Positions 29,598-61,485 of a stretch of DNA of 64,000 bases are shown in pieces (the first letter of the stretch is position 1; the number at the start of each line of letters is the position of its first letter). This stretch comes from an uncultured Flavobacteriaceae bacterium (lineage in GTDB: Bacteria > Bacteroidota > Bacteroidia > Flavobacteriales > Flavobacteriaceae). The DNA is taken from assembly GCA_947494565.1 (NCBI GenBank), contig CANLVG010000004.1, positions 1-64,000 of the forward strand, written 5' to 3'. The notes below the pieces were generated by a model. It had not been told where the DNA came from. It saw nothing but the letters and a program-made list of their open reading frames with translations, and did not search any database. Both the position numbers and the translations under genes were made by a program.

Positions 29598-29613
29598 TAC
29601 CCGATAACAGGTA
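29598..29613 (+). promoter_or_regulatory. NarL-type operator a, before the C1-protease operon
   Basis: TACCCGATAACAGGTA flanked by AAA and TTT. It has 7-2-7 inverted-repeat geometry with a central TA. A partial -7 box (TAAATTGT, 29637-29644) follows after exactly 23 bp, as at the other promoter-linked copies. Proposed binding site for the LuxR/NarL-type regulator at 45485-46105. Confidence 0.6.
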
Positions 29614-29668
29614 TTTAGGATTCGTTATTTAAGTGTTAAATTGTAAGCGAAACCATATGAAAACCATT

Positions 29669-31114
29669 ATGAAAAAACTACTCTTTATTTTCTTCTTGTT
29701 CAGCACCTTTGCCTTCTCTCAAACCCAGAGAAGTACAGGGCTACTTTTTGATGACGATGCTTACGAAAAGACGCCACTTAAGGCTCGAAATGTAGCTTTT
29801 CAAGATGTAATAACCGAAACTACCTTGACCTCGTTGAAAATGTTTGTCCCTGAAATTAAAGACCAAGGGGGCTATGGTACATGCGTAGGCTGGTCATCGG
29901 CGTATTACGGGAGGTCGATTCTAGAAGCGCGACTGACCAACAATAAGGACCGGGCAAAGATTACCGAAAACACCTTTTCACCTGTATATACGTATCTCCA
30001 TGCAAACGTTGAGAACGATTATAATTGTCAGGGAGGGGCATTTATTGGGAAAGCTATGGAAGCAATGGTGTCCAAGGGAGTTGCATACTATAAGGATTTT
30101 GACGTCATGTGTGCGAGCGAAATCCCTGAAGACCTCATGCCGAAGGCCGAAGCGAACAAGATCAAGGATTTTACCCGCATATTCGGAGCTGATGAATCTG
30201 ATGAAGTCAAAATCGATGGCGTGAAACGATCATTGGTCAATGGCAATCCCGTAATCATCGGCTTTAAGGTCGAGAACTCGTTCTTTAGTGCCAAAAATGT
30301 TTATGAACCTGACAATCTGGGAACCGAAGGTGGTCATGCAATGTGTTTGATAGGATACGATGATGAAAAGTACGGCGGGGCTTTTGAAGTAGTGAACAGT
30401 TGGGGTCCTGCCTGGGGGAACGATGGCTTTATGTGGATCCGTTACGCCGACTTTCCAAAGTATACGCGGTATGCCTTTGAAATGATCCCCAACACACAAA
30501 AACCCAAACAAAAAATCGTACTTGCCGGGGAGCTTGAACTTCGGTTACGGGATGACTCTCCGATGAGTGTCACCAAAGAAGAGGGGGAGTATTCAGGATC
30601 CGTATTCGGATTTCAAGATGTGGTCATCGAAGATGAGTCACAGAGTATCGGCGATTATGTGACGACATCAACTTACCCTACCGGAACCAGATATCAAATG
30701 ATTACCAAGGTCAACCAAGCCTCGTACGTCTACGTACTCGGTGCCGATTCGGATAATGAGAACTCGCTGTTATTTCCCTACGAAGAATCGATCAGCCCCT
30801 TTATTAACTCGGATAATGCAGAGGTTATCATACCCTATGCAGGCCCCAAGCAAAAGGCCTTTTTTCGCTTGAATAAGGAAGTGGAATCAGACTATTCTAT
30901 CGTGATTTTCTCCTTGGAAAAAATTGATATTGCAGCGGTCAAAACCCGACTTGATGAAATGGAAGGTGAATTACTCGATAAACTTTATGTTATTTTCAAT
31001 GACCAACTCATCGATAAGGAATCCGTACAATTAATGGATGGTAAAATGGGCTTTACCGCTGAATTTGAAAAGGGTTCAATGGCAATGATGATTCTGGATA
31101 TCAAAAGGTCATAA
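29669..31114 (+). CDS. Exported papain-like (C1) cysteine protease
   Basis: 481 residues from the ATG at 29669 (MKKLLFIFFLFSTFAFSQ, signal peptide). An ATG at 29657 is also in frame, but the inferred transcription start near 29650 would leave almost no leader. The C1 triad is complete: Cys72 in GGYGTCVGWSSAYYG, His223 in GGHAMCLIGYDD and Asn243 in NSWGPAWGNDGFMWI. The C-terminal part (about 330-481) resembles DUF4384-like domains, with YVLGADSDNENSLLFPYEE. There is no obvious propeptide. It heads a five-gene operon with a lipoprotein and two CHASE2 proteins, so it is probably an envelope protease linked to that sensory complex. Confidence 0.9.
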   Translation: MKKLLFIFFLFSTFAFSQTQRSTGLLFDDDAYEKTPLKARNVAFQDVITETTLTSLKMFVPEIKDQGGYGTCVGWSSAYYGRSILEARLTNNKDRAKITENTFSPVYTYLHANVENDYNCQGGAFIGKAMEAMVSKGVAYYKDFDVMCASEIPEDLMPKAEANKIKDFTRIFGADESDEVKIDGVKRSLVNGNPVIIGFKVENSFFSAKNVYEPDNLGTEGGHAMCLIGYDDEKYGGAFEVVNSWGPAWGNDGFMWIRYADFPKYTRYAFEMIPNTQKPKQKIVLAGELELRLRDDSPMSVTKEEGEYSGSVFGFQDVVIEDESQSIGDYVTTSTYPTGTRYQMITKVNQASYVYVLGADSDNENSLLFPYEESISPFINSDNAEVIIPYAGPKQKAFFRLNKEVESDYSIVIFSLEKIDIAAVKTRLDEMEGELLDKLYVIFNDQLIDKESVQLMDGKMGFTAEFEKGSMAMMILDIKRS

Positions 31115-31117
31115 GCC

Positions 31118-31615
31118 ATGATCAAAAATCTTTTGGCAACGTTATGTCTGATTTTTTTGGTTTCTTGCAATTGTCAACGAACTGCGGATAAAGGAAACAG
31201 CCGTGCCGACAAGCAGATTTCAAGCGATAAAATCAAGGTTTTTTTACGAGAGAAAAATTTTGATATCGTCACCTCCGCCAATTTGGTCGTTGTATTCGAT
31301 ATCAAAAAAAAATTGATTGAGGGCACCACTGATGAGTATTCGAACAAACTGGTACTCAAGGATACCTTGGCCAATGAGAAGGCCAATGAATTGCTGGCAC
31401 TTTTGGTTGATGACTCCTCGTATGACTGGACCGAAAAAGAAGTGAAAGAAGATTTTAATCCCGGGCTACAGTTTCTTGTACGAAACGATACGGAACGAAT
31501 CTTTCTCTTGGTCGACAAGAAAAATCGGCGTTTGGGCTTTATTAATTTAGAAGGGCAGAAAATAGTGGAGCTTTCTAAAAACCTGACTGATTATTTTGAC
31601 CAGCTACAGCAATAG
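31118..31615 (+). CDS. Small lipoprotein in the C1-protease operon
   Basis: 165 residues. Signal peptide with lipobox LVSC, so lipidated near Cys17, followed by NCQR. The mature part is charged alpha/beta sequence with no catalytic motif (KIKVFLREKNFDIVTSANLV, then LQFLVRNDTERIFLLVDKKN). It begins 3 bp after the protease stop, so the two are co-transcribed and probably act together in the periplasm; an inhibitor or adaptor role is possible but unsupported by motif. Confidence 0.78.
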   Translation: MIKNLLATLCLIFLVSCNCQRTADKGNSRADKQISSDKIKVFLREKNFDIVTSANLVVVFDIKKKLIEGTTDEYSNKLVLKDTLANEKANELLALLVDDSSYDWTEKEVKEDFNPGLQFLVRNDTERIFLLVDKKNRRLGFINLEGQKIVELSKNLTDYFDQLQQ

Positions 31616-31648
31616 GCCAATGGTATTCCCTTAAGAACAGTTCATCCA

Positions 31649-32848
31649 ATGTACCTAAAAAAGATCTTACCAAAACCAAACAAATTCCTTCTTAAGGAAG
31701 CTCTGTTTTGCATGGTATTTTCCTTTATAATCTTGGGTTTGGTCTCTTTGATCGGTTTTAACTTGAGTTTTTTTACTCCCTTTAACAATGCGTTCAAAGA
31801 CTTTAGCTATCTGGACCTGTATTATGCCGAAAAACTGGATAGGAATATCGGTGATATCAATAAAGATATTGTTCTGGTGAATGTAGAACGTTTAGGAAGG
31901 GCTGAAATCGCTGCCATGATGACCAAACTAGAGCGCCAAAAGCCGAAGGTCATCGGGTTGGATATCATCTTCAAAGAGGAAAGAGATCCTATTGAAGATA
32001 GGGCGTTGGCTCAAGGTCATCGCATGGAAAACTTAGTGACGACCTATTCCATATTGAATTCAGGTGTGGATAGTTCGGCTGCTAGAATCAGTAGACCAGA
32101 CCAAATTAGCGGGTACAGTAATTTTAGTTTTGACCCTACCAGTTCGGTGGTGCGTAATTTTCAGGGGTATCGCAAAGACGGTGATTCGGTACAAGTGGCT
32201 TTCGGCGTTGCAGTAGCCAAGTTTGTAATGGGAGAGAAATGGGATGGCAGCTTAGAACGCTATCTCGATGAAGAACGCCCCATCAATTACAAAGGCAATC
32301 GCGACAATTTCCTGATTCTGGAACCCGATGATATTTTGGGCCGGGATACAATTCCGGTAGTAATGAATAAAATAGTTCTGATGGGATATTTAGGACATCA
32401 GGAAAACCATCGGTTTGATATCGAAGACAAACATTTCACGCCGATGAACGAGAAGTTTGTTGGAAAGAGTGCACCTGACACCTTTGGTGTTGTCATACAT
32501 GCAAATATCATTAACATGATTGTATCGGATGATTTTATCAGTGTGGTACCCAATTGGATACTGGTACTATTGACCATACTGTTCACGTTTTTGGCGCTGA
32601 CCTACTTCATCTGGCTGGCCAAAAGGCAATTGGCCAGTTATATTTTACGATTGAACATCGTGAGATTAGTCTTTATCGCCGTATTCGTCTGGATTGCGCT
32701 GTTATTGTTCCGAAATGGAATTCTATTCAAAACGGCGGGAATCATCGCCGTTGCGGCCTTTAGTATCGGTCTGATCGGGTATTACAAAAAATTGGCACAT
32801 TTTCTCTATAAAAAATATAAATGGAACGGATATTTCTACCAAGACTAA
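31649..32848 (+). CDS. CHASE2-domain membrane protein without output domain
   Basis: 399 residues. One N-terminal membrane helix (about 20-42), an extracytoplasmic CHASE2 sensory domain (about 45-290, with FKDFSYLDLYYAEKL, DIVLVNVERLGRAEI, GLDIIF, and FDIEDKHFTPMNEKF), then three helices (about 296-375) and a short basic tail. CHASE2 normally feeds a cytosolic kinase, cyclase or GGDEF domain; none is present here. The stop overlaps the next gene by 28 bp. A paralogue lies at 33630. It may pass a signal sideways to the other proteins of this operon. Confidence 0.88.
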   Translation: MYLKKILPKPNKFLLKEALFCMVFSFIILGLVSLIGFNLSFFTPFNNAFKDFSYLDLYYAEKLDRNIGDINKDIVLVNVERLGRAEIAAMMTKLERQKPKVIGLDIIFKEERDPIEDRALAQGHRMENLVTTYSILNSGVDSSAARISRPDQISGYSNFSFDPTSSVVRNFQGYRKDGDSVQVAFGVAVAKFVMGEKWDGSLERYLDEERPINYKGNRDNFLILEPDDILGRDTIPVVMNKIVLMGYLGHQENHRFDIEDKHFTPMNEKFVGKSAPDTFGVVIHANIINMIVSDDFISVVPNWILVLLTILFTFLALTYFIWLAKRQLASYILRLNIVRLVFIAVFVWIALLLFRNGILFKTAGIIAVAAFSIGLIGYYKKLAHFLYKKYKWNGYFYQD

Positions 32849-33612
32849 CGCTGTTGTTCCTATTTTGGTTCGTAGGTACAGCTACCTTTGCGCAGCAAGG
32901 CTATTTTGTCTTTAAAAAGACGGGAAGCCCCGCCCTCAATACGAGTACCCTTCTGGAACGAGGAAGTCAATTGCTTGAGTCGGACACCCTGTATTTGGGT
33001 CAAAAGGACTATGTGCTTCTGGTGAATGAATTGGGGGAACTTTTCGAGATCACGAAACCCAATACATATGCTTTCTCGGCAATTGCCGATTATCGACGCC
33101 GACTTGAAGCCGACTCTTTTACCGAAAAGTACTTTACTTATGTGTGGAAACAGTTCATCAATCGGATCAAAAAGAAACAAGAGTCGGGTGTTGTTTATCG
33201 GGAGGAACGAAACATAAAATTAATCGCCCCTAGGGATAGTGTGAAGATGTTCGCGCCCGAACTGAAATTCGTTTGGCAGAATAATTCGGATACAGAAGCA
33301 CTGTTTTTTTTCCTTAAGGATGTTAAGACCGGGCACCTGACGAAAATCGGGCTCACTGGTGAGCAAATCATACTCGGTTTGGATAATCAACTACTGAAAA
33401 CAGGACAAACCTATCAATGGTCCGCCTCTACAGAGTCATTTCCGAATCTGAACGAACTAAAGTTCCACCGATTGACCTTGTTGTCCAAAGGGGAATTTGA
33501 AGCACTTGAGAAGGAGGTGGACGCACTAATTAGGGCTTTTACCTTATTGGGGTTTAGCGAGGCTGAGATTCAAGAAGCTATTTGCCAAGACTATAAATTT
33601 TGCCGGGAATAA
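32821..33612 (+). CDS. Exported protein between two CHASE2 genes
   Basis: 263 residues with a signal peptide ending near TATFAQQ. The N-terminal strand-turn pattern (YFVFKKTGSPALNTSTLLERGSQLL..., then YVLLVNELGELFEI) recalls FecR-like or SH3-like sensory modules. The middle (about 135-210) looks like an immunoglobulin-like beta domain (FAPELKFVWQNN, YQWSASTESF), and the C-terminus is helical with two Cys. It starts inside the first CHASE2 gene and ends 17 bp before the second, so it is part of the same unit. Function unknown; position suggests an extracytoplasmic partner of the CHASE2 proteins. Confidence 0.78.
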   Translation: MERIFLPRLTLLFLFWFVGTATFAQQGYFVFKKTGSPALNTSTLLERGSQLLESDTLYLGQKDYVLLVNELGELFEITKPNTYAFSAIADYRRRLEADSFTEKYFTYVWKQFINRIKKKQESGVVYREERNIKLIAPRDSVKMFAPELKFVWQNNSDTEALFFFLKDVKTGHLTKIGLTGEQIILGLDNQLLKTGQTYQWSASTESFPNLNELKFHRLTLLSKGEFEALEKEVDALIRAFTLLGFSEAEIQEAICQDYKFCRE

Positions 33613-33629
33613 ATTAGATTTTTAAAAAG

Positions 33630-34817
33630 TTGTCGAAAAAAAGGAAGCATAGAAAACTATTACTACGAGATGGGTTGTTCAGCACCCTTCTGTCGCTATT
33701 GGTCTGTTACCTGTTCTCCCTTTTGTTCTTCAACACCTCCTTCTTCGACCCGTTGAGTAAAGCCTTACAGGATTTTAGTTTTTTGGATGTGTATTATGCC
33801 GAACGTTTGAATGAGCAAGAGTTGACCGATACCAAAGTTATCTTGGTCAATGTAGAACATAAAACCCGACAAGAACTGGCCAATGCCCTTGATAAGGTCA
33901 TTGAAAGTAGGGCCAAAGCAATTGGTTTTGATGTCATATTAAGAGAGTTTGAAAAGACAGCGGCCGATACCTTGTTGGCCAAACTATTGAAGGAAGACCG
34001 TGTCATCGCTACTTACATTATTGGGGATGATGGCGAGGAGATCAAAAGCCATACCTTCTTCGGAGAAAACTTGACTTCGGGCTTCGCCAACTTTAGTTTT
34101 GATTCAAGTAGTTCTGTGATACGGGAGTTCAGTGGAAGGTACGAATCGAAACAGGATATAAAGGAATCACTGCCTGTCGTATTGGCAAGGCAGTATTTGT
34201 CACCGAAAGAGTGGTCGGCAAGAGAAATAGATGAAAAAATAGCAAAACCTCGGGTAATCAATTACCAAGGCGGGCTAGATCATTACCTGCATCTGACCAT
34301 TGATGATATCCTGTACCTAGAAAATACCGACCTGTTGAATGACAAAATAATTCTCTTCGGCTATTTGGGATCGCCCTCCGGAAACTCATTCGATATTGAG
34401 GATAAACATTTTACCCCATTGAACACCACGACAGCGGGTAAAAGTATTCCTGATATGTATGGGGCTACAATTCATGCGAATATTATATCAATGCTGATTT
34501 CTGATAGATTCATGTACAAAGTACCTCGATTGTTGGAATTAACCCTTTTGTTTCTCTTCAGTTTTGTGGCTAGTGTCTATTTCATTTGGTTAGACAGACG
34601 ATTGAATATCAGCTATCGAACCGTTAGAAAAACAGTGTTGTTCGTTTTTTCCATACTCTTGGTTTGGATAACGCTTTTATTGTTCAAAAGAGGAATCGTT
34701 TTTAAATCCGCTACGATAATCGCGGTAGCTGTTTTTAGTGCCGGTTTTGTAAAGTATTACAAACATTTGGTGCGTTACATTAACACCAAAAGAAAATTCA
34801 AAAGCTATTTGAACTAG
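33630..34817 (+). CDS. Second CHASE2-domain membrane protein (paralogue)
   Basis: 395 residues, collinear with the product of 31649-32848: helix 1 near 18-38, CHASE2 (DFSFLDVYYAERL, VILVNVEHKTRQEL, FDIEDKHFTPLN), then three C-terminal helices and no output domain. The start appears to be TTG: the frame has no ATG near the N-terminus, and the predicted first residues (MSKKRKHRK) are the expected positive-inside flank of helix 1. It ends 2 bp before the stop of a convergent gene. The pair probably arose by tandem duplication with the exported gene between them and may form a heterodimer. Confidence 0.87.
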   Translation: MSKKRKHRKLLLRDGLFSTLLSLLVCYLFSLLFFNTSFFDPLSKALQDFSFLDVYYAERLNEQELTDTKVILVNVEHKTRQELANALDKVIESRAKAIGFDVILREFEKTAADTLLAKLLKEDRVIATYIIGDDGEEIKSHTFFGENLTSGFANFSFDSSSSVIREFSGRYESKQDIKESLPVVLARQYLSPKEWSAREIDEKIAKPRVINYQGGLDHYLHLTIDDILYLENTDLLNDKIILFGYLGSPSGNSFDIEDKHFTPLNTTTAGKSIPDMYGATIHANIISMLISDRFMYKVPRLLELTLLFLFSFVASVYFIWLDRRLNISYRTVRKTVLFVFSILLVWITLLLFKRGIVFKSATIIAVAVFSAGFVKYYKHLVRYINTKRKFKSYLN

Positions 34818-34819: not shown

Positions 34820-36016
34820 CTATTTGGCCCTGGCCTTATCCAAGATTTCGCGTTTGAAGCGCGATTCGTTTTCCAAAACAGCAAAAAAATCAAGTAGGTA
34901 ATTCCTTGTTTTTTGATAGGTTTTGCGATTGTCGAAGTCCTCTTTCAGGTCATCCACGATGTTCAACAAGGTTGTTTTTTGATTTAAGAATTCGGTCCGT
35001 ATCGCCTGGGTGGTTTTCGGGTCTCTTTTAAACCCTCGGTAGAGGCGTTGGGTGACATCTGAAATAGGCAGGTCTTGATTATTGATATTTGATACCACGG
35101 AATAGCTCGCATCGACCAAACCCGACATATCGAAGTCATAAGGCAGGGGAACTGCCTTTTTATCGAGAAATAATAGTTTTTGGTTATGCCCATAAGCGGT
35201 TGAAAAATCGGTATTGCCGATCATGAATTGAAAAAAGGCATTGCGCAAGGATGACATAGCGTCTTGTGCTAGGGGGTGCACAAAGCGATCGAAAACCTTG
35301 GCATCATTTCTTTTAGCCACATTTTTGATGTCCTCGATCAAGATGGCCCGTAAATGGTGCGTTCTTGGTTTCCTTCTAGCAAAAACACTATCATTCAGTG
35401 TGGAAAGGTTCCGTTTTTTGACTTCCATAAAAATGGCCATTAGCGGATCTTCCGCCTTCTTTTGTCTGGGGTCATCGGTAAACTCCAAATCCACTAGCCT
35501 TGTTTTGAAGTGGGCTGTACTGAAGGATTCGTATAGTTTATAGGCCAAATATTCCTTGAGGATATCGTCGTTCGAGCGATTTTGTAACAAACAGGGCAGC
35601 ACCACTTTCATCTTTTTAAGGCCTTCAAACAGGGTGCCTTTGGCCTCGGAAGATTTAATTTTCAATTTGATAGGAGGAAAATAGCAGTTGGTTCGCCTGA
35701 AGTTCCCACGTGCTCGAAGGTCTACCGGAATACTATCCCAATTACCGTTCTGTTCGTATGATAACACGGCCTTGACATACGATTCTGTGCTCGCCTGTTT
35801 GCGCATCTGTTTGTTGGAGTAGCTGAATTTTAGGGGGAGGGGATTCAAATTTACGAAAACACCTAGGCTAGGGTCTTTCATTTTCTGTCCGTAACAATTC
35901 TCGAAATTCCCTATGAAAATTACAAAAAGGACTAAACTCGATAGTTTTATCCCTCTTTGTCTAAAACTTTTGGCTAGACCTATTAATAGAACTCTTAATC
36001 TTCGCAAAGTTGACAA
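34820..36016 (-). CDS. CotH-kinase-like exported protein
   Basis: 398 residues. A hydrophobic signal (LSSLVLFVIFIGNFENCYG) follows a basic stretch. The core fits the CotH-like family seen in Bacteroidota: PVDLRARGNFRRTNC, PPIKLKIKSSEAKGTLFEG, LKEYLAYKLYESFS, and VPLPYDFDMSGLVDASY, the last being the likely kinase-fold metal loop. The start is a TTG (36016, or 36007); no ATG lies before residue 46. The TTG overlaps the upstream lipoprotein by 22 bp. Last gene of the leftward surface operon; CotH proteins are atypical protein kinases, but activity here is not shown. Confidence 0.75.
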   Translation of the reverse strand: MSTLRRLRVLLIGLAKSFRQRGIKLSSLVLFVIFIGNFENCYGQKMKDPSLGVFVNLNPLPLKFSYSNKQMRKQASTESYVKAVLSYEQNGNWDSIPVDLRARGNFRRTNCYFPPIKLKIKSSEAKGTLFEGLKKMKVVLPCLLQNRSNDDILKEYLAYKLYESFSTAHFKTRLVDLEFTDDPRQKKAEDPLMAIFMEVKKRNLSTLNDSVFARRKPRTHHLRAILIEDIKNVAKRNDAKVFDRFVHPLAQDAMSSLRNAFFQFMIGNTDFSTAYGHNQKLLFLDKKAVPLPYDFDMSGLVDASYSVVSNINNQDLPISDVTQRLYRGFKRDPKTTQAIRTEFLNQKTTLLNIVDDLKEDFDNRKTYQKTRNYLLDFFAVLENESRFKREILDKARAK

Positions 36017-36687
36017 TATTTCAAAATACTATACGCAGCATTCTCAGAATCACGTGCAACTACCAGAATGTAATAGTATGTGTTGGTATCGAAATTTGGT
36101 ATTGAAAAGGTGACTATAGGATTGGTCAAGTTTTGTTCTTCACCATCATTATTTTCAGGACTTATCGCTTCACTGGTAGACCAATAGGCATCATATCTCA
36201 AGGTGCCATCGTTTTCCCGATTACCTCCTGTCCAACGTACCTCAATATTGGTGGTATTACTTTGAGGGGTTACGATAACCCTCTCATCAAAGGTGACAGC
36301 CAAAGGAACGCTGTTGTCATTTGGCTCGCCACTGGGTGTTCTGAATTCCTGTACTTTGCTATCAGCCTCATTGCTAACTATTTTCCAAGAATATGAGGAG
36401 TTATAGTCTACTTGAAGGTCAAATCGTAATGTGCCATCATCTAAAGTTCTAGGGTTAATTGAAACGACCTCATCGTTTAGAATCAATTCAAAACTTGAAA
36501 TTTCTCCTTGAACTTCCCATTGAAATGGAATTGAGATTCCATTACTGCTGAGCGTACCCTTTTCACAATTTGAATTTGGTTCTGGATATTTCAAATTAAT
36601 AGCAAATTCATCTGCCTCAAAACTACCATCACAACCTATAAGTAGAAAATAGAAGAAGCCCCCGAATAGTAAAAAATATCTCCTCAT
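35995..36687 (-). CDS. Fibronectin-III-like lipoprotein
   Basis: 230 residues. Lipobox LIGC (Cys19). The mature part looks like two beta-sandwich modules; the first ends with SYSWKIVSNEADSKVQEFRT and the second with NTYYYILVVARD, both typical of FN3-like domains. The C-terminal YCQLCED adds two cysteines. It lies 4 bp after the stop of the 1745-residue surface protein and overlaps the CotH-like gene, so it is in the same operon. Probably surface-exposed or periplasmic; function unknown. Confidence 0.75.
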   Translation of the reverse strand: MRRYFLLFGGFFYFLLIGCDGSFEADEFAINLKYPEPNSNCEKGTLSSNGISIPFQWEVQGEISSFELILNDEVVSINPRTLDDGTLRFDLQVDYNSSYSWKIVSNEADSKVQEFRTPSGEPNDNSVPLAVTFDERVIVTPQSNTTNIEVRWTGGNRENDGTLRYDAYWSTSEAISPENNDGEEQNLTNPIVTFSIPNFDTNTYYYILVVARDSENAAYSILKYCQLCED

Positions 36688-36691
36688 AGTG

Positions 36692-39600
36692 CTAGTTCTT
36701 TAATAGTTTAAACTCAATTTGATCATTTTTTTCAGTCTTAACGGTGCCCAAGTAAAGCCCGTTTTCCAATGTTGAAATATCCAATCTTATTTCGGTCGCT
36801 ATACTATCACTTGATTTCTGATAGACAAGTTTTCCAGAGATATCAAAAAGCTGAACAAATATCCTACCTTGTAATGAAACACTATTCACGAAAACAATTT
36901 CCTTTCCGGGGTTGGGATAGATTTGAACTGAATTCAGCAATATACTTTTTTGGATGATCCCTTTGCACTCAGAGTCACCTTTAATACTTAGTTCGTTTAA
37001 TCCAGGTTCGAGCGGTATTTCTATAGAATTTTCAGAAACATCATTGAACTCGAATAGGTAATTTCTAAGATTTGTAGCTACTTCATAGGTAGTACTTCCT
37101 GAAACATTTAAGCTAACTACTGTTCCTAACAAATTGTTTTGTTCTACGGTCATTCCGTCAAAGGGCACAATCTGAACGATATAACTCGGCAGAATAACAT
37201 CGGGATACGTGGCTTGAGTATCAGCCTTGAAAACCAATGACACCTGATAGTTACCAATGATCAAGCCATCAAAGAGTTGGGTGTTGTCATCAGAATCATT
37301 TTCGTCTAAACCTAGGGTTTTATCGTACACAATACCTTCTAAACCAACGACATGCACCTCAAAAGGAAAGGGAGAGTCGTTTTCGATAAAGATGTCCCCC
37401 AATTGGTCATCCCCAGGGCATCTTGGGCTTTGAGCCACTATTTTAATATCGCCAGGATCAAAGGAAGAGGTGTCAGAGACCGAACTGATTAACTCAACTT
37501 CAGCCCTGTTGTCGTTTTGGTCAATCAGATAATTCACACCTGCGTCGAGTGTAAGCCAGAGGCTTTCGTTATTCTCCAAAACATCATCCGGTAACGCTTT
37601 TATAAAAAGAGATTTTGATTTTGGCCCTCCTGATTCGAAAAGTACTGTTCTACTTACTGTAGATAGTACAGTGGATTTATCTTCTTGGAAAATAGTATAA
37701 TCTTGTCCCTCGATTACGTTGTCAGTATTGGTTATATCTGAAATCTTAATGATTACCGCCACATTTTTATCTGGAGTTTTATCGAGCTCAACAAGGACTT
37801 CTGCAAAATCCGAAGCATCGGATTCTCGACTCCTAAAATCTTCTCCACTTTTGATTTTCACCGTATATTCCGCAATGTCTTCACTGTCGATAGTTATCCC
37901 ATCGATTCCCTTAGTATCGCTAATAGAATAACCATCACCCTCGACAAGTGCTATGTTCAGTGTTTCTAGTGGTTCAAATAGGTCATCATCAATAGGTTCG
38001 ATTACTAAAGACGCGCTTAACTCTCCTGCTGCGATATCGACATAACCCAAAAGAGGCTTTACATCGGCTAAGGATGCAGTACTTGAAGCATCCAGTTCAT
38101 AGAAGACCCTAGTGTCCAATGTTTTTGGATTGTCAGTGTCCAGCGATATGGTGAATTCCCCATTTTGCAATGGATTTTCCGATGCTACACTAGTCGTCGC
38201 ATCGATGCTAACAGGAATAACGTCTGAAATGAATGCTTCATAAATTTCGGCGGAGAAAGAATCTATTGATTTAAGAACAGTGTAATTAGCAGATTCAGGT
38301 GGTGTAATTGTCAATTTTAGATACTCACCATAATTTAGGCCCTGATTATCTACTTCGGATTCGTCGAATAGGTCGTCTTTCTCTATTTTAATGATATATC
38401 TATTGTCAAACTGGCCTATTCGTGTAGTGCCATCGAGAAAATTGTCATTGTCTTGAATTTTATAGTCCAGAGGTTCCACAGCACCCTCGATCTCGATTTC
38501 AAACTTATATTTTGTCCCGATTGGCACTCCTTTTTCGGCCTTAAACTCAATAATTAAGTCTTCCCCTTCTTCAATGGTGTAGGCCCTACAACAATTACTT
38601 TCATATCGGATATCTCCGGTTATTATTCTCAATCCCCCCGCTGGGTTTGCGGAAACCAAGAATTTTCCTTCCTTATCAATGATTACCGCTTCTAGGGGAG
38701 GAGGGAGTCCGATATTCATATCTGAATCCGAGTCTAGAACCGTTACGGTATAATTTTCCCGTTGTTTATCATCTGGATCTTGATCTTCCCTTAAATTCAA
38801 AACCAATGTCCCGGATGATTGTCCTGGTTCAACAATAATCGTAGCTGAATTAATGTCCCCGCCATCGATAAGTGCATAATCTCCATCCTCGGCTGCCTCT
38901 GAGTCTTCTCTTTGTTCATGGTCAAAATTTTCGAACCTAAGACGGAATTTTATAGGCTCGGAGGTAATAGGATTTGTCCATGCGTTTCCATTAATGTCTT
39001 CCAAAGAAATTGTTAGGGTATCTCTACTTGTTTCATATCCTCCGGCGTTGTCCAAAACAGCATTGATGTCCGTTCTGTCCCCGTCAATAATTTTTATTTG
39101 AAACGAAATGCCCCCGCTAAGGTCTGTGTTGTCGAGCCATTTGTATTTTATACCTGAATTGTCCTCCAATTGGGGAAACAATGATAAAACCAATAGCTCT
39201 TCTGATTCTACGACACCATCATTGACAATTCTAAACGTGTCTATCATATCCACATCGGTAGTTGGATCTGATATTAGTTCCATACGATCATTCGTCGTCT
39301 CGATATAATCTAAAGAATTTGCTTCCGATAGTTCAGGTTTAATGGCCGTGGTTACGAATCCTAAGTTTGTTCCTGCTCTAATAGGTGAAACAACATTGTA
39401 TTCAATGGCAAATTCTTCACCCTCCATAGCGAGATAGTTGCCTTCCTCATCTGTTTCTAAACCAGTGATTTTACCGGATACTAGAACAGGTTCGGCTTCA
39501 TTGATATTTATTTGGAATCGTAAAAAAGACGTGTTTGCATCTTTCCACTCGTAATTTCCTAGGGGCTTATCTAAAATGATATCCAGTTTTTCCCCAGGAT

Positions 39601-41929
39601 CGGGGCCATCGTTGTCAAAAATTTGATATCGTATTTTTCCATCAGGATTTTCATTTGAATTTATGGTGATACCAACTTGCGTTTGTGGTCCAGAATAATC
39701 GGTTGAGGTCGCAGAAGTATTACTTAGATCTAAGGGTATGACAAAGCTTTCCCCGTCCGCCCCGTCTATAGCTTCCACGAAAATCTCCACGACACCTCCC
39801 TCATTGACAAAATAGTTCAAGCCATCAAATACGACATCTCCATCCAAGGTCGCGGTGACCATGGTTGGGGCTTGATCTTGCTTATCCTGTATTTTAAGGT
39901 CATAGTTAGTATTGGTTAAAGTAAAGTTATTGCCGACTACGGATAATGTTATTTTCAAATCTTCCCCACCTAGTTCATCGATCATATCATCCTTGATTTC
40001 AATTCGAAGAATGTTATCTGGCGAATCTGATTTTACAGAGTAGGCAAATTGTAAATTTGGAGTGGCTTGTTGTATAACAACATCGTTTTCATCTGCCGAA
40101 TCTGTACTTAAGGTTACTTGAACAATGTAAACTTCGTCTAGAGGAGCACTCGCATCCGCTTCGAAATTAAGAAGCAAAATTTCCCCTTCTTCAATTTCAT
40201 AAATTGGGCCGCCACCCTGACCAATGTCAACGACGTTAGTACTACCTATCGATGAGGTAACATTAAATGGAGTATTTGCGGCATCGTCATCGGTAATGAG
40301 CACTTCTTGATTTCCATCTTCAATAACTACCCTTAAGGGGTCAATGGTGCCGGCATAGGCAATAGTGGCAAAAAAGTTCTCTACATTCTCTGGTAGGATA
40401 TCAAGATTTAAAATAGGAACATCGAATTCTACCGAAGACGCACCGTTTGGTATAGAAGGTTGAGACGTAACTGCTTGATAATCTTGGTTAAAGGTTGCGC
40501 TACCCCCACCAAGCGAAACATTGAAAGGCATCGGGGCACCTGTATTATTCTCAAGTGAAGAGGTTATTCTCAATCTTGCATTGGACCCGCCTTCAGTGCC
40601 GTTGTTGACCAATTCGAGATTGATATCGGTAATCTCATTATCTATGATACGTACGGGTAATTGAACCACACCATTGGTAGCGTTCTTTAAAGTGATATTT
40701 GTGTCGTTAGACCGGACTTCCACTAGAAAAAACTCATCCGCTTCGAATATTCCGTCTCCCCCAATGGCCACTCTTCTGCTTCCTTCCACTGCACCAACCG
40801 TGGTCAGGGCCGTAACTTGATCGGCAGTAATCAGCTCAAAATCTACGCCCGGCGTTGGTACTATACCTCCCGTAGCGGTATTTTTTGTGGGGTGTCCTAT
40901 GGTACTGATTTCTAGTTGGTAGCTGTTCAAAACAGCGGGCGGTAGTTCGCTCCCGTTTTCGTCCCTCAAATCATAGTTGACGAAAATCTCGTCGGTACCA
41001 GAAGTGATCACGTAATTGCCGTCCGCATCCGGTGTTTGATTGGGTGAGAGGGAGATTTCAACAATATTGTTCAGTGAATTACAGTTGATTGCATAGGTAG
41101 TTGTAGCGTCTTTTTCCCACCCAATGGCGTTTGCTGCCTGTACAGGGTCATCTACCTGAATACAGTCCAAGGCGGTCGATTGTGTATTCAAGGCAACCAG
41201 TATCGCATTGTTTCCGTTGGCCACATTCAATGTACTCAGTTGTGTATTTGAGGAAACATCCAAAAGCTCCAAGAGTGTATTTGCGGACACATCCAATGCA
41301 TCGAAATTGCAATTTGAGAGGGTCAACCCTTCTAAATCCGGCAGCAAACCCAAATTGGATAAGGTATCGAGGTTAGTACAATCGTCGGCAAACAATGTTT
41401 TGATATTCAGTGTTCCATTGAGTTGCACTCTACCAAAACTATTCCCCTGAATGTTTAAAAACTCCACATTGGGTACACCACCAAAACTTACGGAAGAACC
41501 TGCGTTGCCAAAACCGTTGTAGGCAAGCGACAAGCTTATAACATTGGTCAAAAAAGATCCATTGGGCGGATTATTTTGAAATCGAATCTGTTTTCCGGCC
41601 AAATTACAATTGTCCGCTTTTATTGTGACCAGAGAAAGATTTTGTAATACCAGTTCGTCCAAATCATTTCCACTGACATCCAAGGTTTCCACAGCGCTGA
41701 AGAATTCGAGTCCGCTCAGGTCTGAAATCCCTCGATTTGAAACGTTGAGGTCAGTTACCATATCCGCATCGACAATGGATATAACACCATCTCTAACCGG
41801 ATTAGAATCATGGCCTAGGGCAATAAGGGCATCCTCAAATGCTGGGTCATCTATGGCTATGGTCTGAGCCCCTGCCCAAATGGAGAAGAGCAAAAACAGT
41901 ATAACAGGTAAATTTCTTTTCATTTTCAT
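36692..41929 (-). CDS. Giant surface protein: LRR, Calx-beta repeats, T9SS sorting domain
   Basis: 1745 residues. Signal peptide (MKMKRNLPVILFLLFSIWAGAQ), then a leucine-rich-repeat region (about 55-270, units such as VETLDVSGNDLDELVLQ), then about 1150 residues of Calx-beta-like modules with acidic calcium-loop signatures (ITDDD, IIDNEITDI, KIEKDDLFDES). The last 80 residues are a type-A T9SS sorting domain (VQIYPNPGKEIVFVNS, LFDISGKLVYQ, LENGLYLGTV). It should pass the outer membrane by type IX secretion and be attached to the cell surface or released. The 12-bp gap to the DUF5723-like barrel upstream implies one operon. An adhesin role is likely by analogy. Confidence 0.92.
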   Translation of the reverse strand: MKMKRNLPVILFLLFSIWAGAQTIAIDDPAFEDALIALGHDSNPVRDGVISIVDADMVTDLNVSNRGISDLSGLEFFSAVETLDVSGNDLDELVLQNLSLVTIKADNCNLAGKQIRFQNNPPNGSFLTNVISLSLAYNGFGNAGSSVSFGGVPNVEFLNIQGNSFGRVQLNGTLNIKTLFADDCTNLDTLSNLGLLPDLEGLTLSNCNFDALDVSANTLLELLDVSSNTQLSTLNVANGNNAILVALNTQSTALDCIQVDDPVQAANAIGWEKDATTTYAINCNSLNNIVEISLSPNQTPDADGNYVITSGTDEIFVNYDLRDENGSELPPAVLNSYQLEISTIGHPTKNTATGGIVPTPGVDFELITADQVTALTTVGAVEGSRRVAIGGDGIFEADEFFLVEVRSNDTNITLKNATNGVVQLPVRIIDNEITDINLELVNNGTEGGSNARLRITSSLENNTGAPMPFNVSLGGGSATFNQDYQAVTSQPSIPNGASSVEFDVPILNLDILPENVENFFATIAYAGTIDPLRVVIEDGNQEVLITDDDAANTPFNVTSSIGSTNVVDIGQGGGPIYEIEEGEILLLNFEADASAPLDEVYIVQVTLSTDSADENDVVIQQATPNLQFAYSVKSDSPDNILRIEIKDDMIDELGGEDLKITLSVVGNNFTLTNTNYDLKIQDKQDQAPTMVTATLDGDVVFDGLNYFVNEGGVVEIFVEAIDGADGESFVIPLDLSNTSATSTDYSGPQTQVGITINSNENPDGKIRYQIFDNDGPDPGEKLDIILDKPLGNYEWKDANTSFLRFQININEAEPVLVSGKITGLETDEEGNYLAMEGEEFAIEYNVVSPIRAGTNLGFVTTAIKPELSEANSLDYIETTNDRMELISDPTTDVDMIDTFRIVNDGVVESEELLVLSLFPQLEDNSGIKYKWLDNTDLSGGISFQIKIIDGDRTDINAVLDNAGGYETSRDTLTISLEDINGNAWTNPITSEPIKFRLRFENFDHEQREDSEAAEDGDYALIDGGDINSATIIVEPGQSSGTLVLNLREDQDPDDKQRENYTVTVLDSDSDMNIGLPPPLEAVIIDKEGKFLVSANPAGGLRIITGDIRYESNCCRAYTIEEGEDLIIEFKAEKGVPIGTKYKFEIEIEGAVEPLDYKIQDNDNFLDGTTRIGQFDNRYIIKIEKDDLFDESEVDNQGLNYGEYLKLTITPPESANYTVLKSIDSFSAEIYEAFISDVIPVSIDATTSVASENPLQNGEFTISLDTDNPKTLDTRVFYELDASSTASLADVKPLLGYVDIAAGELSASLVIEPIDDDLFEPLETLNIALVEGDGYSISDTKGIDGITIDSEDIAEYTVKIKSGEDFRSRESDASDFAEVLVELDKTPDKNVAVIIKISDITNTDNVIEGQDYTIFQEDKSTVLSTVSRTVLFESGGPKSKSLFIKALPDDVLENNESLWLTLDAGVNYLIDQNDNRAEVELISSVSDTSSFDPGDIKIVAQSPRCPGDDQLGDIFIENDSPFPFEVHVVGLEGIVYDKTLGLDENDSDDNTQLFDGLIIGNYQVSLVFKADTQATYPDVILPSYIVQIVPFDGMTVEQNNLLGTVVSLNVSGSTTYEVATNLRNYLFEFNDVSENSIEIPLEPGLNELSIKGDSECKGIIQKSILLNSVQIYPNPGKEIVFVNSVSLQGRIFVQLFDISGKLVYQKSSDSIATEIRLDISTLENGLYLGTVKTEKNDQIEFKLLKN

Positions 41930-41941
41930 TTCTTTAAAGCC

Positions 41942-43354
41942 CTATCGATACAGATCTTTCATCAACGGGATATTCAATCCAAAGTACAGGTGATGTACTT
42001 TTTCATTGGTAAACATACTGCTCAATGCAGCCGCTCCTATAGTAACTGGGCCGTAACGTACCCCAAGGCCTGCGGATATGCTACCTGTCGCTTCCAAATC
42101 AAAGTTTACCGGAAGGTACACACTGAATTTTCGAGTTTCATACCGTGGGGTGACCGTGACCAAATCCATTTGCGAATTGGCAAAGCTGTCGGTAGCCTTC
42201 GTGAGTCCTTTGATATAGTTGATATTGATATAATAGTTGTTGTTGTTCAGAATAATATAGTCCAAGTTGAGGTTTAGTGATCGTGGCAATAGAAAGTTGG
42301 CTTCGCCTCTAAGGGTGGAAAAGTTATCAGCGTCTGCCTTCAAGGTTGGAATAAAACCCGTTTGGGGCACATAATTATTTTTGTCTATAGCGAAGCTATT
42401 TAGCGAAATCGAATCCCTTAGCACTGATTTGTAGGCCACTTTACCGATATCCAGAACCGAAGCACTTACTTTCAATTTATACTTGTTGACGGCACTACTA
42501 TTGCTGCGTACATCTACCCGGTTGGTTTCCCGAGGGCGCCATTCGTAGACGAAACCGATATCGCCACCAATACCTGAACCCTTGCCACTAAAATTATCGA
42601 GCACCGAACTCAGAAAAAACTCCTGGTTACTTTCGCCATTGGCATCAGGGTCGGTGTCCAAACTAATAAACGGATTGGTGCTGTTAGTGTTCAAGTTCAA
42701 GTTTGTCCCGTCATCAGTTCCCTCTAAGTCACCACGCACCTCGACGGCGCGATTGCCAAAAAAGTACTTAAAGGTTCCTCCAAATTTGACGAAGTGGTAG
42801 TTGGAATTGATCAATACGGCTGAGAGGTTGAGTCCGACTTCTCCCCATGAATGAGCCGTGTTGTTCAGGACACTACTTTGAAAGGTATACTCTCGGTCCT
42901 CGAACCCGTCATTTAGTCCCTCTAGCAGGGTATTGTTGACATTATGATAATCATAGAACGTACGGGAACGCAAAAGCAATCCGATACCGAAATTCTCATG
43001 GAAATTCCAACTTACCGAGGGGAGCAATACATCGGTATGACCGTAACTATAGCCCTCTTTTACTCTATTGGCCTCATCATTGTTTTGGGAAAAATCCAGT
43101 CCATTAAAGCCATTGGGGGTGGTTTCGACCTCAAAATTGGTAAGGCTACCAAATTGGGAAACACCCAACTGATTAAACGAAAGCACGTTGACATGAATAC
43201 GATATTTAGAATCGACACTATTGGCAGGGTTGGCCACTACGCCATAAATACCACTATAGTTGTCAAACGCAAATCCATGATGGGTGGTTTGGGCAAAACA
43301 GAGCGTGGACCAGCTAAGGAACACTAGGGAAACTACTGAGAATTTGGTATGCAT
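41942..43354 (-). CDS. DUF5723-like outer-membrane beta-barrel protein
   Basis: 470 residues with a signal peptide (FLSWSTLCFAQ). It shows alternating amphipathic strands and the early PANSVDSKYRIHVNVLSF pattern I associate with DUF5723 barrels, related in look to PorP/SprF proteins. The C-terminus (YFGLNIPLMKDLYR) fits a barrel end. PorP/SprF-like barrels often sit beside a T9SS cargo and anchor it, and here the next gene is such a cargo, 12 bp away. It is the first gene of the leftward operon; a NarL-type operator lies 162 bp upstream with a perfect -7 box between. Confidence 0.8.
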   Translation of the reverse strand: MHTKFSVVSLVFLSWSTLCFAQTTHHGFAFDNYSGIYGVVANPANSVDSKYRIHVNVLSFNQLGVSQFGSLTNFEVETTPNGFNGLDFSQNNDEANRVKEGYSYGHTDVLLPSVSWNFHENFGIGLLLRSRTFYDYHNVNNTLLEGLNDGFEDREYTFQSSVLNNTAHSWGEVGLNLSAVLINSNYHFVKFGGTFKYFFGNRAVEVRGDLEGTDDGTNLNLNTNSTNPFISLDTDPDANGESNQEFFLSSVLDNFSGKGSGIGGDIGFVYEWRPRETNRVDVRSNSSAVNKYKLKVSASVLDIGKVAYKSVLRDSISLNSFAIDKNNYVPQTGFIPTLKADADNFSTLRGEANFLLPRSLNLNLDYIILNNNNYYININYIKGLTKATDSFANSQMDLVTVTPRYETRKFSVYLPVNFDLEATGSISAGLGVRYGPVTIGAAALSSMFTNEKVHHLYFGLNIPLMKDLYR

Positions 43355-43484: not shown

Positions 43485-43492
43485 CAAATATA
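43485..43492 (-). promoter_or_regulatory. -7 box of the DUF5723/LRR operon
   Basis: TATATTTG on the minus strand is an exact TAnnTTTG match. The gap to operator b (43516-43531) is exactly 23 bp, placing that operator's centre near -44, where the -33 box would be. The leader to the ATG at 43354 would be about 125 nt. A weaker box (TACATTTA, 43405-43412) lies closer to the gene. Confidence 0.5.
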
Positions 43493-43515
43493 ATTGAGAA
43501 TGGGATAGCCGAAAA

Positions 43516-43531
43516 TACCTAGTAGTGGGTA
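43516..43531 (-). promoter_or_regulatory. NarL-type operator b, before the DUF5723/LRR operon
   Basis: Reads TACCTAGTAGTGGGTA on the plus strand, flanked by AAA and TTT: a 7-2-7 inverted repeat with central TA. It lies between the end of the M48 protease gene and the start of the DUF5723-like gene. Confidence 0.6.
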
Positions 43532-43618
43532 TTTATTTGGTATTCCCTTGATAATCAGAAACTAAAAGAAAGAATGCAATGATATTTAGTGTAAGATTTA
43601 CCGCGAAATATCGTACGT

Positions 43619-45078: not shown

Positions 45079-45116
45079 ATCAAGGGAAATCTCCGAAAAT
45101 TTATTTTCCGGGAAAA

Positions 45117-45484: not shown

Positions 45485-46105
45485 TTAAAAATTGTACTTC
45501 TTCTCGAGAGCATAACGTAGCAGTTCCCCTTTTCCTTTAATACCCAGAATTCGCATCATATTTTTACGATGGGTATCCACCGTATGGATACCGATAAACA
45601 GTTCTTCGGCAATTTCCCGTGAGGTCTTGCCCTGAGCGATTAGGGCCAGGATTTCCTTCTGGCGTCTGGTCAAGAGTCCTTTTTTGGCACTTACTTTGGC
45701 TTCGCCACCATTCACATTGATATTACCATCATAGTAGGTCTTACCATCGGCAACGGCCAGAATTGCTTGGAGTACCTCGTTTAAAGAGGTATTTTTTAAA
45801 ATATAGCCCGAAGCCCCGGCCTCCAGCATTTGAGTGACCGCCTCATCTTGGTCGAACATGGTAAAAGCCAACACATTGATGTGCGGGTATTCTTTTTTAA
45901 TGAGTCGTGTCGCTTGAATACCATCCATTTTTGGCATTCTAATGTCGGTCACTACGACATTGGGTTCTTTTTTCTGAACGATGCGGAGTAGACCTTCGCC
46001 ATCATTGGCGGTACCTACGATTTCTATACCGTCCTCATATTTTAATAGGAGTTCCAATCCGTCGATAAGGGATTGATGGTCTTCTGCTATGGCTAGTCGT
46101 ATCAT
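45485..46105 (-). CDS. NarL/FixJ-type response regulator
   Basis: 206 residues. Receiver domain 1-120 with phospho-acceptor Asp54 (VVTDIRMPKMDG), acidic pocket Glu8/Asp9, and Lys near 104 in YILKNTS. A LuxR-type HTH lies at about 143-200 (LLTRRQKEILALIAQGKTSREIAEEL, then HTVDTHRKNMMRILG). NarL-type proteins bind heptamer pairs as dimers, and five 7-2-7 inverted repeats occur in this window, one upstream of this operon. The ATG overlaps the kinase stop by 4 bp. It is convergent with the small membrane gene at 45214. Confidence 0.95.
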   Translation of the reverse strand: MIRLAIAEDHQSLIDGLELLLKYEDGIEIVGTANDGEGLLRIVQKKEPNVVVTDIRMPKMDGIQATRLIKKEYPHINVLAFTMFDQDEAVTQMLEAGASGYILKNTSLNEVLQAILAVADGKTYYDGNINVNGGEAKVSAKKGLLTRRQKEILALIAQGKTSREIAEELFIGIHTVDTHRKNMMRILGIKGKGELLRYALEKKYNF

Positions 46106-47949: not shown

Positions 47950-48681
47950 CTAAAACATGACTTTATTAAAACTCTGCTTACATCTTTTGCCAGGTAACTG
48001 CAGCGCCACCTCATTCATATAGGTCTGCGGATTTTCATTTTCAGTATCATAATCTTCTTTGCGCACCACATGCCGACCATCTTTATAGAAAAACTCAAAA
48101 TCAAAGGCTTTGCCGTTATCGGGAGCACAGGAAACCCGCCCATCGGAGTCGAACAACACCTGCCCGCTGGCATCTTTTTTAGGGAACATCGGATTTAAAT
48201 ACCGTTCGGAATGTAAATAACTACCTTGTTCAAAATGAATGTTTTTCAAAGCGGCCTCATTCAGTGTATAGGTACTCACATCACTTTGCGCACGGGTATA
48301 GATTTTAAAGGTAAGGCCGTTTTTCATACGGCTAGTGGCGACAACAACCGAATCGATACCGATAAAATAAGTGGGTTTATAGTTGACGATTTCGAAGTCT
48401 ACATTTTTCAGGGTTTTGTAATTGCGTCCTAAGGATGATTCGCCAATGGCAATGGAGGCGTAAATACCATAATTGGTCTGATAATTCTGCCCGGCCATCA
48501 ACAATTGTTTTCGGTCATCGTTCAAGTCTAGAGTAGAACTGTATTCTTCAAGACCTTCCATTTTTTTGACAATCATGGCGTCATCCGCAACGCCCATTTT
48601 TTTGTCTTGTGCCCTCATAAGGGCCGGAGAGAGGATTAGCATCATCATTAATAACGGGGTAACTTTTTGAAGTGTTTTCAT
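47950..48681 (-). CDS. Exported protein at the head of the NarL-type operon
   Basis: 243 residues with a signal peptide (LLMMMLILSPALMRAQ). The mature part is beta-rich, with a GMKNG-like turn, a FDSDGRVSCAPDNG loop and a Lys/Cys-rich C-terminus (LPGKRCKQSFNKVMF). No family recognised. It is 3 bp upstream of the histidine kinase, so it is the first gene of a three-gene operon (this protein, kinase, regulator). A secreted or periplasmic ligand or accessory sensor for the kinase is a natural guess. NarL-type operator d lies 58 bp upstream of its ATG. Confidence 0.8.
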   Translation of the reverse strand: MKTLQKVTPLLMMMLILSPALMRAQDKKMGVADDAMIVKKMEGLEEYSSTLDLNDDRKQLLMAGQNYQTNYGIYASIAIGESSLGRNYKTLKNVDFEIVNYKPTYFIGIDSVVVATSRMKNGLTFKIYTRAQSDVSTYTLNEAALKNIHFEQGSYLHSERYLNPMFPKKDASGQVLFDSDGRVSCAPDNGKAFDFEFFYKDGRHVVRKEDYDTENENPQTYMNEVALQLPGKRCKQSFNKVMF

Positions 48682-48707: not shown

Positions 48708-48715
48708 CAAATGTC
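48708..48715 (-). promoter_or_regulatory. -7 box of the NarL-type operon
   Basis: GACATTTG on the minus strand differs from TAnnTTTG only at the first base. It is exactly 23 bp from operator d and 26 bp from the ATG at 48681. Confidence 0.5.
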
Positions 48716-48738
48716 GCCTAAACAGCAAGACAAAAAAA

Positions 48739-48754
48739 TACCCGCTAAGGGGTA
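48739..48754 (-). promoter_or_regulatory. NarL-type operator d, before the two-component operon itself
   Basis: Plus strand TACCCGCTAAGGGGTA, with AAA and TTC flanks; 7-2-7 inverted repeat with central TA. It lies between the ends or starts of two leftward operons and faces the operon that encodes the kinase and regulator, suggesting autoregulation. Confidence 0.65.
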
Positions 48755-48828
48755 TTCTAAAAATAGGAATAAAAAAGCGAAACCTATAAGGCATAGATTT
48801 CGCTGTAATTACCAAGAGACTATCTGTT

Positions 48829-60575: not shown

Positions 60576-60610
60576 ATAATTCTCTAATCAACAACCTACA
60601 GCCCTGAAGA

Positions 60611-60673
60611 ACTGTCATGTCGAGCGGAGTCGAGACCCTAGAAACACGAAAGGTCAAACGACCTGCCTCGACA
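60611..60673. repeat. Dispersed element with TGTCGAG/CTCGACA ends
   Basis: A CTGTCA...GAGCGGAGTCGA core matches three copies at 61924-62106 in the same orientation. Terminal TGTCGAG (60618-60624) and CTCGACA (60667-60673) are inverted, and a small hairpin AGGTC-AAAC-GACCT lies between. It sits between the phoD-like and TlpA-like genes. Repeats of this sequence type are widespread in Bacteroidota chromosomes. Confidence 0.6.
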
Positions 60674-60694
60674 AAAAAGCAGTAATTTGTCCTT

Positions 60695-61267
60695 GTGAAA
60701 CGAAAAAGACCCAAACTGAGCAGCCTGCTGTTCGCTGCCTTCATGGTGTTGTTGCTTATTCCCCAAACGCGGAGACCAATTCAAGTAGTGATAAATCAAG
60801 CAAAGCTCTGGGTATGGTCACCCTCCGCATTGGATATGGAGGACCAAACCCGATTGGCGCCCTTTACGTACCTGTTGTCAGACCTGGAAGGTACTTCACA
60901 AAAGATGAACATCGGTAAGGGCAGGGTGACCTTTATCAGCTATTGGGCAACCTGGTGTCCGCCCTGTATTGCCGAACTCCCCAGCATTGACGAATTGTAT
61001 TCCGACTATGGGAATCAAGTGGATTTTATCTTGCTTACCCAGGAAGACCCGGAGGTGGTCAGCAATTTTTTGCAAAAGAAAGGCCTTGATCTTCCTGTAT
61101 TCATCCCGCGAATGCGGGCACCGGAACAATTGTATAGCCGAAGTATCCCGACCAATTATTTGATTGATAGTACGGGCAAGATCCTTATCAAGGAGACCGG
61201 CGCAGCCGATTGGAACAGTACCCGAGTACGGGCGATTCTAGACGGACTTCTTCCCAACAAGTCCTGA
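60695..61267 (+). CDS. TlpA-like membrane-anchored thioredoxin
   Basis: 190 residues from a GTG (reading MKRKRPKLSS), followed by one uncleaved-looking helix (LLFAAFMVLLLIPQ). Redox site WCPPC with Cys88 and Cys91 in TFISYWATWCPPCIAELPSI, then the conserved cis-Pro region near IPTNYLIDSTGKIL. This is the TlpA/ResA pattern of envelope thiol-disulfide oxidoreductases, which reduce disulfides in exported proteins such as apocytochromes. No ATG is available in frame near the start. It is isolated, flanked by repeated sequence on both sides. Confidence 0.9.
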   Translation: MKRKRPKLSSLLFAAFMVLLLIPQTRRPIQVVINQAKLWVWSPSALDMEDQTRLAPFTYLLSDLEGTSQKMNIGKGRVTFISYWATWCPPCIAELPSIDELYSDYGNQVDFILLTQEDPEVVSNFLQKKGLDLPVFIPRMRAPEQLYSRSIPTNYLIDSTGKILIKETGAADWNSTRVRAILDGLLPNKS

Positions 61268-61469
61268 ACGTGCTACAAGGCTTTGTGCAGTAATTTCTTT
61301 TGAACTACGGAATTTACGGAGTCTTATATCCGAATCCGTTGTGAAGTTGAAAAGCCCATTAGGTTCACGCCGATGCAATCTCCCCCGATTATGCACCGCC
61401 GCTAGTTGTAATGAGCTTACAGCTGTAAAGCTTGGCATAAAGAAATGTGATCAAAAAAACGATTGCAAT

Positions 61470-61485
61470 ACCCACTAAAGGGTAT
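61470..61485 (+). promoter_or_regulatory. NarL-type operator e, no adjacent gene
   Basis: TACCCACTAAAGGGTA is the most symmetric copy of the 16-bp site. No -7 box lies at the 23-bp distance used by the other four; a TAGGATTG is found after 28 bp (61514-61521). No substantial gene follows, so it may serve a small RNA or short peptide, or be left over from a lost gene. Confidence 0.45.

Follow-up and report, generated by a model that had tools for sequence, protein, structure and literature searches.

In the 64-kilobase (kb) window analysed here, that is, the whole stretch of 64,000 nucleotides from contig CANLVG010000004.1 of an uncultured Flavobacteriaceae bacterium, five palindromes of 16 base pairs (bp) share the motif AATACCCNNTANNGGGTATT. 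The observations outlined below very probably reflect an operator that is read by the NarL/FixJ-type response regulator encoded at 45485-46105, acting as a positively autoregulated activator system. The motif recurs at defined positions, stands at a fixed distance from a promoter element and is conserved together with the regulator; on these grounds, we posit that the regulator would bind it and activate the genes downstream, its own putative operon among them.

All five 16-mers from which the initial annotation built its proposal of a NarL-like operator are present in the window, and all fit TACCYNNTANNRGGTA, which matches nowhere else in it (29598-29613, 43516-43531, 45143-45158, 48739-48754 and 61469-61484). 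Four of the positions given there stand, whereas the fifth site lies at 61469-61484 rather than at 61470-61485. Each site is, as had been described, a 7-2-7 inverted repeat with TA at its centre, and the TACCC half-sites, in heptamers that start with TAC and are separated by a 2-bp spacer, give the palindromes the form of NarL-type operators. The flanking AAA and ATT noted for most sites are borne out by AATACC...GGTATT in four of the five, 45143 being short of one flanking A. The sites also spare the plausible genes, as had been claimed: 48739 overlaps short open reading frames (ORFs) of 144 and 61 amino acids and 45143 one of 72 amino acids, all of which we take to be spurious. For this pattern, which was derived from the five window sites themselves, 100 dinucleotide shuffles of the window gave no match, and under a first-order Markov model 0.008 matches are expected in the window, compared with 0.67 genome-wide. 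In the whole genome (5,389,608 bases in 45 contigs), TACCYNNTANNRGGTA matches ten times, five of them inside the window, with a single match for the reversed control. Eight of the ten are intergenic (48739 and 45143 being so counted), and two (C6:198013 and C9:29604) lie inside long ORFs.

The proposed binder is encoded amid the five sites, in an operon that is itself preceded by one of them (scores are given out of 16 for operators and out of 6 for -7 promoter boxes):

48737..48756, minus strand: operator AATACCCCTTAGCGGGTATT (16/16) upstream of the p243-kinase-regulator operon, predicted to be autoregulatory
48708..48715, minus strand: predicted -7 box GACATTTG (5/6) of the p243 promoter
47950..48681, minus strand: p243, first gene of the kinase operon, with no Pfam match and a beta-rich model
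46102..47946, minus strand: sensor histidine kinase, HisKA_3 (1.2e-07) plus HATPase_c
45485..46105, minus strand: NarL/FixJ-type response regulator and proposed binder, Response_reg (1.3e-27) and GerE (1.6e-16)

The regulator joins a receiver to a C-terminal GerE/LuxR helix-turn-helix, the architecture of the NarL/FixJ family, and Asp54 within VVVTDIRMPK is predicted to be its conserved phosphoacceptor, with a HisKA_3 kinase encoded next to it. By sequence, its closest solved full-length relatives are VraR (5hev, E 5.6e-32) and other NarL/FixJ regulators, including NarL (1a04, E 4.9e-21). The VraR and NarL systems differ from the present one in phylum, kinase and neighbouring genes.

Across the family, the operator and the regulator occur together. 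An orthologue of the regulator was found in 85 of 397 family genomes, in two copies in 2 of them, at a cut-off of E 1e-55 or better and with only seven candidates scored per genome. Strict sites, defined across the family as ATACCCN6GGGTAT, number 161 in the genomes with the orthologue, 64 of 85 having at least one (13 sites in the reversed control), compared with 107 in the genomes without it, where 58 of 312 have at least one (35 in the reversed control); the association of site presence with orthologue presence has a Fisher p of 3e-22. The same picture emerges locally, in 89 orthologue loci that comprise up to 20 kb around 80 orthologues plus nine further loci, including the window; set apart from these are L071 (a kinase with no regulator on the stretch), L078 (a regulator at 44%) and the second copies in G384 and G214. 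Sites of at least 13/16 stand upstream of the operon, at up to 400 bp, in 51 of the 89 loci and downstream of the regulator gene, at up to 370 bp, in 45; at least one end of the kinase-regulator operon has such a site in 65 loci, and both ends do in 31, while 39 permuted palindromes of the same composition gave means of 0.67 before, 0.38 after and 1.05 at either end, with maxima of 10, 5 and 12, respectively. Nearly all sites in these loci (164 of 173) are not deep in an ORF. Among 295 genomes sampled across the class, the orthologue appears in two, the window's genome and another of the same family; yet Chryseolinea serpens, which we take to belong to another order, has a relative with two operator-box pairs. 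The earlier assignment of the regulator as binder thus gains comparative support, although the operator is not exclusive to it.

An indication of function comes from promoter geometry. We aligned 124 sites without reference to promoters, each 10-130 bp before an ORF; left aside were the 9 of 173 sites deep in ORFs and all those without an ORF start at 10-130 bp. A second conserved block emerged at offsets 41-48 (T41 60%, A42 90%, T45 85%, T46 93%, T47 77%, G48 56%), which reads TAnnTTTG, the Bacteroidetes -7 box. The exact TAnnTTTG occurs at offset 41 in 28 of the 124 sites and at any other offset in at most one, and, this box aside, the sequence around the sites shows little conservation beyond their arms, centre and A/T flanks. 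At 80 loci found through the kinase, whose species partly overlap the first set, 35 exact boxes lie at offset 41 and at most five elsewhere; a same-type scan of these loci, run with no permuted control, found an operator of at least 13 in 78 and, in addition, a box of at least 4 in 74. The box was also checked on 31 strict sites (30 loci, from 30 of the 122 genomes with matches), where a box of at least 4/6 stands at the standard place in 15 of 17 sites with the orthologue present and in 11 of 14 with it absent, versus 12% and 14% at other offsets; a TA centre is found in 11 of 17 and 4 of 14, respectively.

These distances can be translated into promoter coordinates. The first T of the -7 box lies at -12 in F. 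johnsoniae (PMC6847099), which places the operator centre at about -43.5; in E. coli, induction by NarL at an ogt promoter requires no more than one 7-2-7 site, which lies at -44.5 and 32 bp upstream of the -10 element, so that a single site near -44 can activate there, much like the geometry seen here (PMC9314961). The -7 box is identical to that of Bacteroidetes sigma-A promoters (TTTG or TAnnTTTG; PMC6847099, PMC9723704), and TAnnTTGY is motif SM5 of F. psychrophilum (PMC9723704). Unlike in sigma-A promoters, the operator fills the -33 place with its right arm and T-rich flank, and unlike E. coli NarL promoters, those described here are of the Bacteroidetes -33/-7 type. With one fixed distance and an overlap with the -35/-33 region, the palindrome would qualify as a class II activator site.

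The operators themselves resemble those of NarL and NarP in E. coli in that two heptamers form an inverted repeat around a 2-bp spacer (PMC9314961, PMC2718512); they differ from them in the TA centre, the conserved AA/TT flanks and the looseness of the two final positions of the heptamers. Next to the sites that were scanned, no nitrate genes came to light, and we do not regard the system as NarL proper. The NarL heptamer consensus is TACYYMT, and the half-site TACCC agrees with its start.

In the proposed mechanism, the kinase (46102-47946) would phosphorylate the regulator (45485-46105), and the phosphorylated regulator dimer would bind the 7-2-7 repeat, with its centre near -43.5, at a position that adjoins and overlaps the -33 place. 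Once bound, the dimer would aid RNA polymerase in its use of promoters with the TAnnTTTG -7 box. The units activated in this way would include the regulator's own p243-kinase-regulator operon and at least the M48 peptidase gene, the DUF5723 operon and the C1 peptidase-CHASE2 operon, which are preceded by the other sites as follows:

45141..45160, minus strand: operator AATACCCCATAACGGGTATA (15/16) upstream of the M48 peptidase gene, with a -7 box of 3/6 at the standard distance
45115..45134, minus strand: weak second operator (12/16), 26 bp closer to the M48 gene, of putative function
45086-45093: box GAGATTTC (4/6) of the weak second M48 operator
43619..45025, minus strand: M48-type peptidase gene
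43514..43533, minus strand: operator AATACCCACTACTAGGTATT (15/16) upstream of the DUF5723 operon
43485..43492, minus strand: -7 box TATATTTG (6/6) of the DUF5723 promoter
34820..43354, minus strand: proposed DUF5723 operon, suggested by spacing and strand, with the DUF5723 protein (41942-43354) and proteins of 1745 (36692-41929), 230 (35995-36687) and 398 (34820-36016) amino acids
29596..29615, plus strand: operator AATACCCGATAACAGGTATT (15/16) upstream of the C1 peptidase operon
29637..29644, plus strand: -7 box TAAATTGT (4/6; fits TAnnTTGY) of the C1 peptidase promoter
29657..34817, plus strand: proposed C1 peptidase operon, in the order papain-like C1 peptidase, 165-amino-acid protein, CHASE2 protein, 263-amino-acid protein and second CHASE2-like protein
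61467..61486, no strand: operator-like palindrome AATACCCACTAAAGGGTATT (16/16), with neither a convincing -7 box nor a gene

The C1 peptidase probably starts at the ATG at 29657 and not at the GTG at 29633, and the 1745-amino-acid protein appears, from reading its translation, to be secreted. Elsewhere in the genome, the match at C1:105481 lies 55-57 bp upstream of a gene for a 298-amino-acid protein and has the box AATTTTTA (4/6) at the standard distance; the match at C3:7235 is 185 bp upstream of a gene, with a box of 4/6 and an operator of only 13/16; and the match at C7:86784 is intergenic and below the thresholds used. Judged by such close matches, the regulon is thus small.

The arrangement persists in close relatives. 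In a sister species (G006), the cluster has matching order, with the kinase 67% and the regulator 84% identical, and sites of 14 or 15/16 stand at four places matching the window, upstream of p243 (14/16), the M48 gene, DUF5723 and the C1 peptidase. The kinase is 72% identical in Muricauda sp. CAU 1633, 73% in Maribacter spongiicola, 63% in Maribacter flavus and 59% in a Maribacter metagenome-assembled genome; in the same order, the operators before p243 score 15/16, 15/16, 12/16 and 14 plus 12/16, and the p243 boxes 3/6, 5/6, 5/6 and 3/6 plus 5/6. DUF5723 follows in three of these four relatives, behind operators of 15, 13 and 15 of 16 and boxes of 6/6. From these relatives, the window's genome would seem to be Maribacter-like.

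Several observations weigh against the regulator as the reader of every such site. At up to two mismatches, TACCCNNTANNGGGTA occurs 191 times genome-wide versus 312 in the reversed control, so that the scan shows no excess at this level and only close matches are meaningful; weak matches were dropped. Within the window, only one box (at 43516) reaches 6/6, the M48 promoter would depend on its weak second operator, and the 61469 site, whose box scores 3/6 on the plus and 4/6 on the minus strand and lacks the A of the second place (present in 90% of sites), has no convincing promoter and is an orphan or decayed copy. The upstream regions of M48 in Muricauda and M. flavus have no site above thresholds, leaving G006 as the sole case among the three relatives in which M48 neighbours the regulator. 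At 24 of the 89 orthologue loci, no site of at least 13/16 is found at either end of the operon, and 58 genomes carry strict sites with no orthologue at E 1e-55, a cut-off below which diverged orthologues could be missed. Finally, the counts are not independent, because the loci are of common descent and one palindrome may score in either direction. We considered a change of recognition helix as the cause of the 24 siteless loci. The helix residues HRKN are kept both in the 65 loci with a site and in the 24 without (R for K in 2 of 65 and 1 of 24), and thus the helix does not explain them.

Could the operator instead serve repression, with the regulator blocking the promoter until a signal releases it? 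The extension of the operator into the -33 region would suit such a role. A class II activator is expected at an exact distance near -43.5, however, while repressor sites need no such exactness, and the single exact distance to the -7 box, with a centre close to the -44.5 of NarL, is the place of a class II activator; we therefore regard repression as unlikely.

We think it quite unlikely that another regulator with a GerE domain, for instance a PAS-GerE protein that lacks a receiver, binds the operator and that the two-component regulator is a mere neighbour or target. Three genomes with no orthologue at E 1e-55 lend themselves to this idea: in G391, two operators next to DUF5723 are accompanied by two GerE genes, PAS-like by reading; G262 shows the same arrangement with two GerE matches near DUF5723; and G308 has a GerE-containing match at two operators, in a locus with a C1 peptidase and CHASE2. 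These cases imply that operator and regulator are not tied one-to-one, a further point against an exclusive role of the regulator, and another GerE gene is nearby in 14 of the 89 orthologue loci. In the other 75, however, no other GerE gene lies within the stretch examined, and in the window's own genome the PAS-GerE query from G391 matches nothing at E 1e-6 except the GerE parts of the regulator and of one distant paralogue. That the sites track the orthologue across the family also speaks for the two-component regulator, as does the absence of a TA centre from all 15 strict sites of three orthologue-free genomes (G129, G061 and G288), which suggests that some of those sites belong to a different class, perhaps one that a different regulator reads. 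Neither of the paralogous kinase-regulator loci L321 and L322 (from the window's genome, G000, and from G006) has an operator that scores 14 or higher, or one that scores 13 and has a box of at least 4. A second GerE gene does not cleanly separate loci with TACCC-type sites from those with TCCCC-type sites, the latter type occurring in 6 of 14 loci where such a gene is present and in 11 of 75 where it is absent. We find it scarcely credible that RNA hairpins, terminators or mobile repeats, and not protein sites, account for the palindromes: these are inverted repeats in intergenic DNA, but they stand upstream of the predicted transcription start at a fixed distance, in surroundings that are little conserved.

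Some related observations may be recorded here. Many of the strict palindromes in G129, G061 and G288 read ATACCCT....AGGGTAT. In the loci L313 (6379-8063), L315 and L316, which come from genomes with no orthologue at E 1e-55, GerE genes (PAS-like by reading in L313) stand beside this operator, near DUF5723, CHASE2 or a C1 peptidase. A variant operator, AATCCCCNNTANNGGGGATT, is found in series before several genes 3' of the regulator in L116, L117 and other orthologue loci.

What might such a regulon be for? From the first genes after sites, 74 were picked (one to three per cluster, from 172) and 73 scanned; among the matches listed (25 of 63 families), there are five type IX secretion system (T9SS) sorting domains, four leucine-rich repeat, three DUF5723 and three GerE matches. 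Our best reading is that the regulon consists largely of secreted or membrane proteins, in line with which a role in the envelope or in secretion may be envisaged. A conflict-system reading, suggested by caspase, CHASE2 and papain-like genes, was set aside as a lead only, as just 1 of the 73 first genes scanned matches the caspase family; CHASE2 is named in TRADD-N systems (PMC8195603).

A broader proposal, which we offer tentatively and to which we would give somewhat less than even chances, is that secreted and membrane proteins (DUF5723, T9SS sorting-domain proteins, CHASE2 and papain-like peptidases) form one regulon throughout the family, marked by a single composite promoter in which 21 bp always separate the palindromic operator from the -7 box. 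Its regulator would be exchangeable, a two-component NarL-type protein in many lineages and a one-component PAS-GerE protein in others. The occurrence of operator and box beside GerE genes in G391, G262 and G308 suggests that a replacement of the regulator may leave operator and targets in place. If this proposal is true, the operator and its target genes would be kept while the sensor is swapped, and the motif would be a test case for regulator replacement over a retained operator.

To our knowledge, few response-regulator operators have been defined in Flavobacteriaceae; a PhoP binding study in Riemerella (PMC9603813) is reportedly related work. In the open-access literature, no paper among the matches listed was recognised as describing this motif, and none was found that names DUF5723. 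A motif with exact promoter geometry allows a regulon to be listed in many genomes, and it provides an entry point to the study of secreted and membrane proteins that lack an assigned role.

The first gene of the kinase operon deserves separate mention. Relatives of p243 form a cluster of 22 among the first genes after sites (window included), of which 19 head a kinase operon. In a 24-row alignment of the family, a Cys near the C terminus is invariant, and by reading, members occur with and without a signal-peptide-like start. A function could not be assigned by fold: the model has a mean pLDDT (predicted local distance difference test) of 76, and the best PDB match reaches only E 0.11.

Three repeats in the window complete the description. 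Four copies of CTGAGCGCAGTCGAAG (at most two mismatches) lie at 61820-62082, in intergenic DNA 3' of the 61469 site, where 0.01 would be expected in the window. A perfect tandem array, (GCCAACA)12, occupies window positions 1-84 beside the ORF 86-1672, and a second, (AGTAGCC)7.6, lies at 54229-54281, between an ORF ending at 54159 and the ORF 54326-55618; the copy number of both 7-bp arrays could differ between strains.

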